This document shows, one piece after another, positions 10,856 to 12,327 of a DNA stretch of 57,864 bases; the stretch's first letter is position 1; each line of letters begins with the position of its first letter. The position numbers and the translations under genes are program-made. The DNA lies in the NCBI GenBank assembly GCA_937944245.1, contig CALDYY010000011.1, positions 1 to 57,864 on the forward strand. Reading direction: 5' to 3'. This stretch comes from an uncultured Saprospiraceae bacterium (GTDB lineage Bacteria; Bacteroidota; Bacteroidia; Chitinophagales; Saprospiraceae). The notes under the pieces were generated by a model, which searched no databases, was not told the DNA's origin, and worked only from the letters and a program-made list of their open reading frames with translations.

Positions 10856-10887
10856 TTTGCAAGAAACAATAAGAGTATTTACATTTG
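10856..10887 (+). promoter_or_regulatory. Promoter of the tRNA-like RNA
   Basis: TTTG (10856-10859), 20 bases, then TACATTTG (10880-10887), an exact match to the Bacteroidota TTTG/TAnnTTTG promoter. The predicted start is near 10894, about 32 bases before the RNA body. Confidence 0.7.
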
Positions 10888-10925
10888 CATTAACAAAGGA
10901 AGTAAAAAAGATAACTTCTTAAAAA

Positions 10926-11042
10926 TGTGAGGTGATGAAATGGCAGCCATGCCCTCCTGTCTCGGGGGTGGAGAGTTCGGAAAAAACCAGTTTTAGGATT
11001 GGCTAACCGCTCCGTGGAGGTTCGAGTCCTTCCCTTACAGCA
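10926..11042 (+). ncRNA. tRNA(Leu)-like RNA with an extra-long variable region
   Basis: The ends fold as a class II tRNA. The acceptor stem is 10926-10932 with 11033-11039 (7 bp). Positions 8-9 are TG. A 3-bp D stem (10935-10937 with 10948-10950) has a loop AAATGGCAGC, close to that of tRNA(Leu). The anticodon stem is 10952-10956 with 10964-10968 and its loop CTGTCTC would present GTC. The T arm is 11016-11032 with loop TTCGAGT. Then come G, C, A. Between the anticodon and T arms are 47 bases (10969-11015) instead of the 10-24 usual in class II tRNAs; they can form TGGAG/CTCCG (10969-10973 with 11010-11014) and an inner CCAG/TTGG hairpin. With its own promoter and terminator it is an independent unit. 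It is not a standard tRNA: GTC is an aspartate anticodon, base 37 is T, and base pair 1-72 is T-A. I do not recognise a named RNA family. Confidence 0.6.
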
Positions 11043-11045
11043 AAC

Positions 11046-11073
11046 GTTCCTTTTGGGACACTTTATATTTTTT
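11046..11073 (+). terminator. Terminator of the tRNA-like RNA
   Basis: The hairpin GTTCC-TTTT-GGGAC (11046-11059) is followed by the T-rich stretch CTTTATATTTTTT. It begins 3 bases after the predicted 3' end of the RNA. Confidence 0.7.
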
Positions 11074-11175
11074 ACTCAATAAACCATTAAACCATTTCCT
11101 GCCAATCTTGTATAGATACAGAGCATTAGTTTTTACTTATTGCTGACAACTTATCTAACTTACAAAACAGTTACA

Positions 11176-12327
11176 ATGAAGATTGGAATTGTGTGTTATC
11201 CAACTTATGGTGGGAGTGGCGTGGTAGCAACAGAAATTGGTCTTGGCTTAGCTCAAAGAGGGCACAAAGTGCATTTTATTACCTACAAACGCCCCGTTAG
11301 GTTAGCACATTTCCATGAAAATATCTTTTACCACGAAGTTACAGATGCGGAGTACCCACTTTTTGAATACCCACCTTATGATACTGCACTAGCCAGTAAA
11401 TTAGTAGATGTGGTAAATTACGAAAACCTTGATATTCTGCATGTTCACTATGCAATTCCTCATGCAGCGGTTGCGTACATGGCAAAGAAAATTTTGCTTT
11501 CGCAAGGAAGATATATTCCTGTTATTACTACTTTGCATGGAACGGACATTACTTTGGTTGGCAAAAATCCAACTTTTGCTCCTATTGTTGCTTTTTCTAT
11601 TAATAAATCAGATGGTATAACGGCAGTTTCTGAAAACTTAAAGCAAGAAACCTATGCCAACTTTGAGATCAATAAAAACATTGAGGTTATTTATAATTTT
11701 ATTGATTTTAACCGATTTAGTCGTTTAAACAAAGAGCATTTCAAAAAGGCGATTGCGCCTGAGGGTGAGCGCATTATCACGCACATTTCTAACTTCCGAA
11801 AAGTAAAACGAGTAGATAACGTGATTCGCATTTTTAAAAAAATACACGAGATTATTCCCAGCAAGTTGTTACTCATCGGTGATGGACCTGAACGGATTAA
11901 GTTAGAAAAACTTTGTCGTGAACTAGAGCTGTGCGATGCTATTCGTTTTTTAGGAAAACAATCGGCAGTGGAAGAACTACTAGCGGTCTCTGATTTATTC
12001 ATCATCCCTTCTGAAAATGAGAGCTTTGGCTTATCTGCCTTAGAAGCTATGGCTTGTGAAGTGCCTGTCATTTCTTCTAATATTGGTGGTTTACCCGAAG
12101 TAAACATACAAGGGGTAACAGGCTTTTTAAGCAACCCAGATAACATAGATGAAATGGCAAAAAATGCCATTCAAATACTAGCAAAGGATGAAGTGCTGCA
12201 ACAGTTTAGAAAAAACGCATTAGCACAAGCTAAGCGTTTTGATATTGATAATATTCTGCCTCAATACGAGCGGTACTACGAGCAAATAATTAAGACGGCT
12301 TTTCAAGAAAAACCGATGGTACGATAA
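11176..12327 (+). CDS. bshA: N-acetyl-alpha-D-glucosaminyl L-malate synthase BshA
   Basis: A 383-residue GT4 glycosyltransferase that makes the first bacillithiol intermediate from UDP-GlcNAc and L-malate in the cytoplasm. The start MKIGIVCYPTYGGSGVVATE is the conserved BshA N-terminus with the glycine-rich loop. TTLHGTDITLVGKNP, the SENESFGLSALEAMACEVP block with its EX7E-type nucleotide-sugar motif, and SSNIGGLPEV are all present. I chose the ATG at 11176 because it begins exactly at the conserved N-terminus; the frame is open 12 codons further upstream. The stop overlaps the ATG of the next gene (TAATG at 12325-12329). Other bacillithiol genes (bshB, bshC) are not in this window. Confidence 0.93.
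   Translation: MKIGIVCYPTYGGSGVVATEIGLGLAQRGHKVHFITYKRPVRLAHFHENIFYHEVTDAEYPLFEYPPYDTALASKLVDVVNYENLDILHVHYAIPHAAVAYMAKKILLSQGRYIPVITTLHGTDITLVGKNPTFAPIVAFSINKSDGITAVSENLKQETYANFEINKNIEVIYNFIDFNRFSRLNKEHFKKAIAPEGERIITHISNFRKVKRVDNVIRIFKKIHEIIPSKLLLIGDGPERIKLEKLCRELELCDAIRFLGKQSAVEELLAVSDLFIIPSENESFGLSALEAMACEVPVISSNIGGLPEVNIQGVTGFLSNPDNIDEMAKNAIQILAKDEVLQQFRKNALAQAKRFDIDNILPQYERYYEQIIKTAFQEKPMVR

Follow-up and report, generated by a model that had tools for sequence, protein, structure and literature searches.

An uncultured Saprospiraceae contig (CALDYY010000011.1), analysed here as a window of 57,864 nucleotides, encodes on its plus strand an RNA (10926–11041) that has all the arms of a tRNA cloverleaf and a variable region of 47 nt. 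From its sequence and from the gene content of the genomes that carry its relatives, we predict that this RNA is a non-decoding tRNA that is charged by AspRS, amidated by GatCAB, and serves asparagine synthesis, a reading to which we give a probability of roughly 0.6. A wider proposal is tentative and in our judgement falls somewhat short of even odds: that a tRNA departed from decoding has become a covalent carrier for asparagine synthesis, that bacteria with AspRS, AsnRS and GlnRS use GatCAB in this way to replace E. coli-type AsnB, and that phages carry the RNA as an auxiliary metabolic RNA, to which most of the phage copies read would add a covarying palindrome for loop-loop pairing. The RNA family is common to several Bacteroidota groups and to phages and went unreported by the standard tools used here.

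The gene and its family

A preliminary description of this DNA, made from the sequence alone, had placed a promoter, a tRNA-like body and a terminator together at 10856–11073, and all three parts are present, on the plus strand. The Bacteroidota-type promoter (10856–10887) consists of TTTG (10856–10859), a spacer, and TACATTTG, which fits TAnnTTTG (10880–10887). The RNA proper, from U1 to C74 (10926–11041), is recovered by a covariance model of the family, R1 (118.7 bits, E = 1.2e-30), and blastn links it to the family. Its 7-bp acceptor stem pairs UGUGAGG (10926–10932) with CCUUACA (11033–11039) and is followed by the discriminator G73 (11040) and C74 (11041). The D arm (10935–10950), with a 3-bp AUG/CAU stem and G18 G19, is tRNA-Leu-like; the anticodon arm (10952–10968) presents the loop CUGUCUC (10957–10963), in which G34 U35 C36 occupy 10959–10961, U37 lies at 10962 and C38 at 10963; and the T arm (11016–11032) has the loop TTCGAGT. 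The GTC anticodon, the T37 and the T-A first pair that had been described are confirmed. The variable (V) region (10969–11015) is exactly 47 nt, as had also been claimed, and is a short form without the GGUNGACC motif; the stem of its own that had been drawn within it is better described, from the family, as three stacked helices (10970–10973/11010–11013, 10978–10980/11007–11009, and 10987–10990/10999–11002). Downstream (11046–11073), a terminator-like hairpin of 5 pairs (11046–11059) is followed by a T-rich tail (11062–11073); a stricter script-based terminator test did not accept this hairpin.

In the window, ARAGORN finds no tRNA gene and Rfam no match, with three chance-level matches only at E up to 10, and at the same limit the RNA is absent among the RF00005 matches in its own genome. 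ARAGORN likewise reports no gene in 15 family loci, and Rfam claims no family copy in 7 further loci. A literature search by title and abstract opening, with subscription papers and preprints outside its scope, yielded no description of this RNA among the matches listed. We rejected a tmRNA or tmRNA substitute, as a normal tmRNA is encoded elsewhere in the genome (L275) and the window RNA is not among the three RF00023 matches. Folding the window RNA as a single sequence (z 0.24; 114 of 200 shuffles at least as stable) does not exclude chance, and relatives were therefore compared.

Of 60 related genomes from 56 genera, 29 from 27 genera gave blastn matches, and several copies stand in tandem with differing V regions. 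The preliminary description had suggested a covariance-model search; with R1, built from 20 copies, it finds the family in 41 of 392 Bacteroidota genomes at 86 bits or more, the next match scoring 64 bits. The gap between 86 and 64 bits set the threshold for calling a genome a carrier, and it was fixed before GatB was looked at. The 64-bit match is itself a short family member (genome G129, discussed below), and the nine lower-scoring matches examined are all tRNA-Leu. All 6 genomes of the family to which the window belongs are carriers, as are 11 of the 13 others in the order and 21 of the 83 in other parts of the class, together with three genomes outside the class that belong to a single family, f67 (loci L047, L048 and L050 in G331, G397 and G339). 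These last loci hold up to three tandem copies each, and their anticodon loop reads CAGTCTC, with A33, in six of seven copies and CAGTCCC in one. A motif search of named genomes returned at least 120 stretches, of which 80 are listed; among those listed are Chitinophaga, Niabella, Dyadobacter, Spirosoma, Cyclobacterium, Algoriphagus, Flammeovirga (5 tandem copies) and Saprospiraceae, and the listed titles that name a group all belong to what we take to be Bacteroidota. One set of loci took in 29 of the 30 loci of the 392-genome search and 52 of the at least 120 motif loci.

Every helix of the family is backed by covariation. Across 108 distinct sequences, in an alignment that was fitted to the model, 94.8% of cells pair and 21 of 33 pairs have changed on both sides, and none of 500 shuffles reaches either value; a MAFFT alignment of 20 copies gives 95.3% pairing and two-sided changes in 16 of 33 pairs, again with none of 500 shuffles. 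Sliding the helix partners abolishes the covariation signal in the 108 sequences. The acceptor, D, anticodon and T arms that had been described keep their pairing throughout, with 99.7% and 99.6% of cells paired in the acceptor and T arms (7/5) and 97.5% in the D arm, while pairing is weakest, at 77.8%, in the outermost of the V helices within the arm. The V helices, which the preliminary description had singled out for such a check, covary in homologues, and the V region ranges from 38 to 131 nt, the 47 nt of the window lying near the short end. Its suggestion of a degenerate tRNA does not fit, because the RNA is conserved across families and covaries.

That description had also named, as grounds for abandoning it, homologues without the arms or promoter and a confident match to a known family; homologues instead keep the arms, no Rfam family claims the RNA, and a promoter of the same type (TTG-N18-23-TAnnTTTG) is found upstream in 57 of the 155 host copies and in 1.6% of 3000 windows drawn at random. 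A terminator-like site lies downstream of 95 of the 155, against 5.2% of random windows, and in viral copies the two elements occur in 3 of 45 and 1 of 46, respectively. No neighbour gene recurs in 80 host loci, where gene clusters span at most 13 loci with one artefact aside, this sole larger cluster (52 loci) being an antisense ORF across the RNA itself. The host gene is independent and trans-acting.

The next gene downstream in the window (11140–12327) encodes what we read from its protein as a bshA-like glycosyltransferase. This neighbourhood is not recurrent among the 80 clustered loci, and linkage to the adjoining gene was rejected on that account.

Conserved positions and aspartate identity

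Conservation was counted in 88 host copies picked by whole-RNA similarity, 20 of which had trained R1; in the host and viral sets that were chosen by motif, the anticodon loop is subject to selection bias. At the acceptor end, U1:A72, G2:C71 and G73-C74 occur in 88 of 88 copies and U3:A70 in 87, and pairs 4 to 7 vary and stay paired. In the anticodon loop, U35, C36 and C38 are invariant and G34 is present in 85, the exceptions being three host copies and, outside this set, the short member of G129 (A34). Position 33 is U in 75 copies, A in 9, C in 3 and G in 1, and position 37 is U in 77, C in 6, G in 4 and A in 1, that is, a purine in 5 of 88. Both U33 and a purine in position 37 are important when a tRNA decodes. 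The family has the 7-bp acceptor stem, the 5-bp T and anticodon stems, and the TTCRA-type T loop of a decoding tRNA but not its U33 and purine 37. Viral copies have U1:A72 in 45 of 46 cases, and among 15 that were found without using the loop, selected by a V-region/T-arm pattern, 13 have (C/T)TGTCTC.

When tRNAs were scored at the nine positions G2, U3, A70, C71, G73, G34, U35, C36 and C38, the tRNA-Asp of the window's own genome matched at all nine, the next best of 30 canonical tRNAs at six, and three tRNA-Leu at none or one; the acceptor positions of one tRNA (Ala) were misread, as its 3' end differs, and its score cannot approach nine. The preliminary description of the RNA as tRNA-Leu-like therefore holds for the body, with its D arm, and fails for the identity, as the conserved positions match tRNA-Asp and the A73 of tRNA-Leu is replaced by G73 in all 88 copies.

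The excerpted text of PMC9976931 gives positions 34–36 and 38 (G34, U35, C36, C38) with G73 as strong aspartate determinants, describes G1-C72 as strictly conserved in bacterial tRNA-Asp, and states that U1-A72 confers amidotransferase amidation of Asp-tRNAAsn and that G1-C72 prevents it. The family has the strong-determinant set but not G1-C72, carrying U1:A72 in every host copy, and it lacks with G1:C72 a pair that is said to assist in placing the acceptor end within AspRS. U1:A72 is also absent from this genome's tRNA-Asp and tRNA-Asn, and the host tRNA-Asn and three phage tRNA-Asn genes have G1:C72 in four of four cases. Eight 20-kb stretches around weak R1 matches of carrier genomes contained no further host tRNA-Asn, all eight matches being tRNA-Leu. 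With the positions that AspRS reads constrained and those that serve decoding drifting, the RNA looks, as far as its sequence tells, like a tRNA with a Leu-type body in which charging by AspRS has been preserved and the capacity to decode has not.

Phage copies and their palindromes

A motif scan of IMG/VR identified 72 contigs, all 72 of which score at least 86 bits with R1, one copy being cut by the contig end. Many of these contigs are clearly phages. The representative of a cluster found about 1 kb downstream in 41 of the 72 loci matches the terminase large subunit, and that of a cluster in 26 loci matches the portal protein. A scan of 60 of the 72 viral loci showed ordinary tRNAs in 27, one locus having as many as 19, and a tmRNA in 4. 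Sensitive blastn against named phages and plasmids gave no match to the window RNA, one phage-type copy had no match among named phages, and none of eight viral records, possibly fragments, encodes an AspRS-type synthetase. A looser viral pattern returned mostly chance matches, with 15 model hits in 72 newly listed loci.

Long forms of the RNA share a GG(U/A)NGACCAC-type motif, present in 121 of 204 unique sequences and in all 47 viral ones. A palindrome of at least 6 nt begins 0 to 5 nt after this motif in 34 of 47 viral sequences (16 different palindromes) versus 5 of 74 host sequences. In the 22 nt after the motif, palindromes occur in 36 viral sequences against 12.9 expected from shuffling, and in 24 host sequences against 19.6; the viral copies are related, and these counts are not independent. 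The 15 later viral copies include 11 with a palindrome. The viral palindromes (L173–L244, in the V region after GACCAC) are 6–12 nt long and hold a nearly fixed place, examples being GCGCGC, TTGTGCACAA, GCCGGCCGGC and AAAGCCGGCTTT. As the sequence changes while self-complementarity is kept, this pattern suggests that phage RNAs may form loop-loop dimers. A few viral copies (L228, L419, L474) have palindrome-like insertions in the D loop, that of L228 being GGTGTACACC.

Viral contigs also contain a second tRNA-like family, with constant tRNA-Leu-like ends (AGTCAGG-D arm and T arm-CCTGACT-A73) around a highly variable middle that has no evident conserved anticodon arm. It was found in L190 (4587–4706, 4342–4504 and 9979–10112, all on the minus strand), in L285, and in L277–L396. 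At least 120 IMG/VR stretches belong to it, six copies were located in L285 by regular expression, and at least some copies pass the Rfam tRNA threshold. Its 3'-end pattern occurs in none of 60 related bacterial genomes.

Partner enzymes, proposed role and known systems

Because U1:A72 is a published GatCAB determinant, GatCAB suggested itself as a partner and was tested; the link to GatB, by which the presence of GatCAB was judged, was predicted from U1:A72 ahead of the 392-genome survey. In 18 genomes, GatB is encoded in 14 of 14 carriers and in 1 of 4 non-carriers. GatB is present in 318 of the 392 Bacteroidota genomes, and within the 102 genomes of the class it is found in 38 of 38 carriers versus 5 of 64 non-carriers (Fisher p = 7e-23, ignoring kinship). 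The association also holds within families, where GatB occurs in 11 of 11 carriers and 0 of 2 non-carriers of f20 and in 8 of 8 and 0 of 3 of f22; these five genomes, in two families and without either gene, are the informative contrasts. Many genomes outside the class have GatB and not the RNA, and five of seven such genomes checked are without GlnRS, a setting in which GatCAB has its usual glutamine role. The three f67 carriers all encode GatB and all lack GlnRS, so GatB there proves nothing. Within the class, GlnRS is present in 35 of 38 carriers, and the usual GatCAB job therefore seems to be taken. Each of the 18 genomes (14 of them carriers) has at least three class IIb synthetase matches, which we read by number and size as AspRS, LysRS and AsnRS.

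Five genomes in the class have GatB and were scored as non-carriers: G129, G098, G211, G258 and G446. The first contains the 64-bit match noted above (L556, G129:C23, minus strand), a 77-nt member with a 7-nt variable loop and the anticodon loop CTATCTC, which has all end and loop hallmarks but G34 and is followed by a hairpin with a T run; this match was examined post hoc, after the genome had stood out in the GatB result. This member lacks a long V arm, so not every copy of the RNA has the large V domain. The small size of the G129 member would make it useful as a compact test substrate. G098 lacks GlnRS. The remaining three, all of family f24, encode a divergent GatB (E about 1e-93, compared with 1e-106 or better in the other GatB-containing genomes of the class) that perhaps belongs to another amidotransferase system.

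E. coli-type AsnB is distributed in the opposite sense, being present in 0 of 38 carriers versus 25 of 35 non-carriers among the 73 of 102 class genomes that were searched (38 of 38 carriers and 35 of 64 non-carriers). This type ("Type I") was called from a split TIGR01536 match together with ORF length. NF006949 (cut-off 499) confirmed it in 3 of the 25 genomes, at 908–930 bits, and gave 228–320 bits for ten long AsnB-like proteins of carriers; a protein outside the class (L542, in G062) falls below the NF006949 cut-off and was not counted. Regions L536, L537 and L541 gave no ORF of the kind sought and were left out of that comparison. AsnB relatives above the TIGR01536 cut-off are lacking altogether in 7 of the 38 carriers, the window's genome included, and the other 31 encode long AsnB-like proteins above that cut-off, which could make asparagine.

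These observations can be arranged into a putative pathway. Transcription from the gene's own promoter would yield an RNA that undergoes tRNA-like trimming and CCA addition. AspRS would then charge it with aspartate through the conserved G73, U35, C36, C38, G34 and G2:C71, and U1:A72 would make it a GatCAB client, consistent with the co-occurrence of the RNA and GatB, so that Asp-RNA is converted to Asn-RNA. The RNA must not decode, because asparagine on a GUC anticodon would corrupt aspartate codons, and U37, the relaxed position 33 and, in most members, the large V domain may serve to keep it off the ribosome. Asparagine would finally be released or transferred, replacing the E. coli-type AsnB with which the RNA is mutually exclusive in the genomes searched. 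Phage copies have the same identity elements and presumably would support asparagine supply during infection. Among the options raised by the preliminary description, a tRNA used outside translation is the one favoured by the evidence. If the prediction is correct, it would show how a cell can build an amino acid on an RNA and still not put the genetic code at risk.

The excerpted text of PMC4206432 reports the combination of AsnRS, GlnRS and GatCAB in 68 of 547 genera, only 18 of which are without an Asn synthetase, and suggests that GatCAB may be kept as a vestige in those delta-proteobacteria in which Asn synthetases occur as well. What GatCAB does in bacteria with AsnRS and GlnRS is an open question, and a dedicated RNA client would, if real, answer it for this group. 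According to the same excerpt, every surveyed genus that has all three enzymes, some Bacteroidetes included, possesses a tRNA-Asn with U1-A72, which counts against the reading of the RNA as the client unless carriers differ, as the one host read (G1:C72) does. In other carriers, tRNA-Asn may itself be a GatCAB client if AspRS is relaxed.

That U1-A72 is reported, in this excerpt, for the tRNA-Asn of surveyed three-enzyme genera lends some weight to an alternative that we consider unlikely, in which GatCAB serves ordinary tRNA-Asn through a relaxed AspRS, or some other client, and co-occurrence with the RNA reflects shared ancestry. The RNA would then act as a decoy or a regulator by binding AspRS or enzymes of the anticodon loop, and in phages as a means of counter-defence or a replacement for an attacked host RNA. 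Phages do place it near tRNAs (27 of 60 viral loci have at least one ARAGORN tRNA and 4 a tmRNA), and conservation of the GUC loop contrasts with the drift of decoding features. However, tRNA-Asn has G1:C72 in the carrier host that was read, the RNA and GatB are present or absent together within two families, and the strict U1:A72 would require a separate explanation.

The aspartate identity and the GatB association would also fit if the aspartylated, perhaps amidated, RNA were a donor for another tRNA-dependent enzyme that adds aspartate or asparagine to a peptide, a lipid or a wall precursor, asparagine supply not being the point. The AsnB-like proteins of 31 of 38 carriers agree with such a use, and a transferase might recognise the RNA by its covarying V domain. 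We nevertheless regard it as improbable, since a side pathway would not predict the mutual exclusion of the RNA and E. coli-type AsnB in the genomes searched, and no neighbour gene recurs in the 80 host loci.

That the RNA is an unusual tRNA(GUC) which has an extended variable arm and still works in translation is very unlikely. Its 7/5 acceptor and T arms, intact elbow, G34 U35 C36 in 85 of 88 copies, and location in phage tRNA arrays are as expected of a decoding tRNA, but U37 in 77 of 88 copies and a base other than U at position 33 in 13 of 88 are not; an ordinary tRNA-Asp(GTC) is present in the genome, as well as in viral loci L210 and L217, and an amidated form would misread aspartate codons. 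Finally, we give almost no credence to a bacterial Y RNA, a tRNA mimic bound by Ro60/Rsr, for all its tRNA-like body and a UUGACC in the long forms that we take to resemble one strand of the Ro-binding helix: Rfam gives no match, and this candidate is refuted for most carriers searched by the missing Ro60/Rsr (TROVE) protein, the TROVE domain occurring in 3 of 36 genomes searched and 2 of 30 carriers.

The RNA can be compared with several known molecules. With canonical tRNA-Asp (GUC) it shares G2:C71, U3:A70, G73, G34 U35 C36 and C38, and it differs in having U1:A72 rather than G1:C72, U37 rather than A37, a Leu-like body, and a V region that can reach 131 nt. With canonical tRNA-Leu, which the weak R1 hits read turned out to be, it has in common the D arm, the position of the V stem and the GU linker, but it has G73 in place of A73, and tRNA-Leu fits none or one of the nine conserved identity positions. 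Allo-tRNAs, as excerpted from PMC7609411, likewise combine an unusual identity with GUC among their common anticodons, and some forms act outside translation; theirs, however, is an 8/4 or 9/3 acceptor branch with SerRS identity, in contrast to the 7/5 branch and aspartate-type positions of this family. The Bacillus cereus pseudo-tRNA "tRNAOther", compared by description only from an excerpt of PMC3399842, is another tRNA-like RNA reported to be non-functional in translation, in a different host.

The closest functional parallel would be the tRNA-dependent asparagine synthesis of Deinococcus radiodurans, Thermus thermophilus and probably Bdellovibrio, as given in the excerpt of PMC4206432, where AsnRS, GlnRS and GatCAB also occur together, U1-A72 is the amidation determinant, and asparagine is formed on an RNA after aspartylation. 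Those systems use ordinary tRNA-Asn as the carrier and charge it with a second AspRS or a non-discriminating one, whereas the carrier proposed here is a dedicated RNA that does not decode and has an aspartate anticodon, so that an AspRS of ordinary specificity would suffice.
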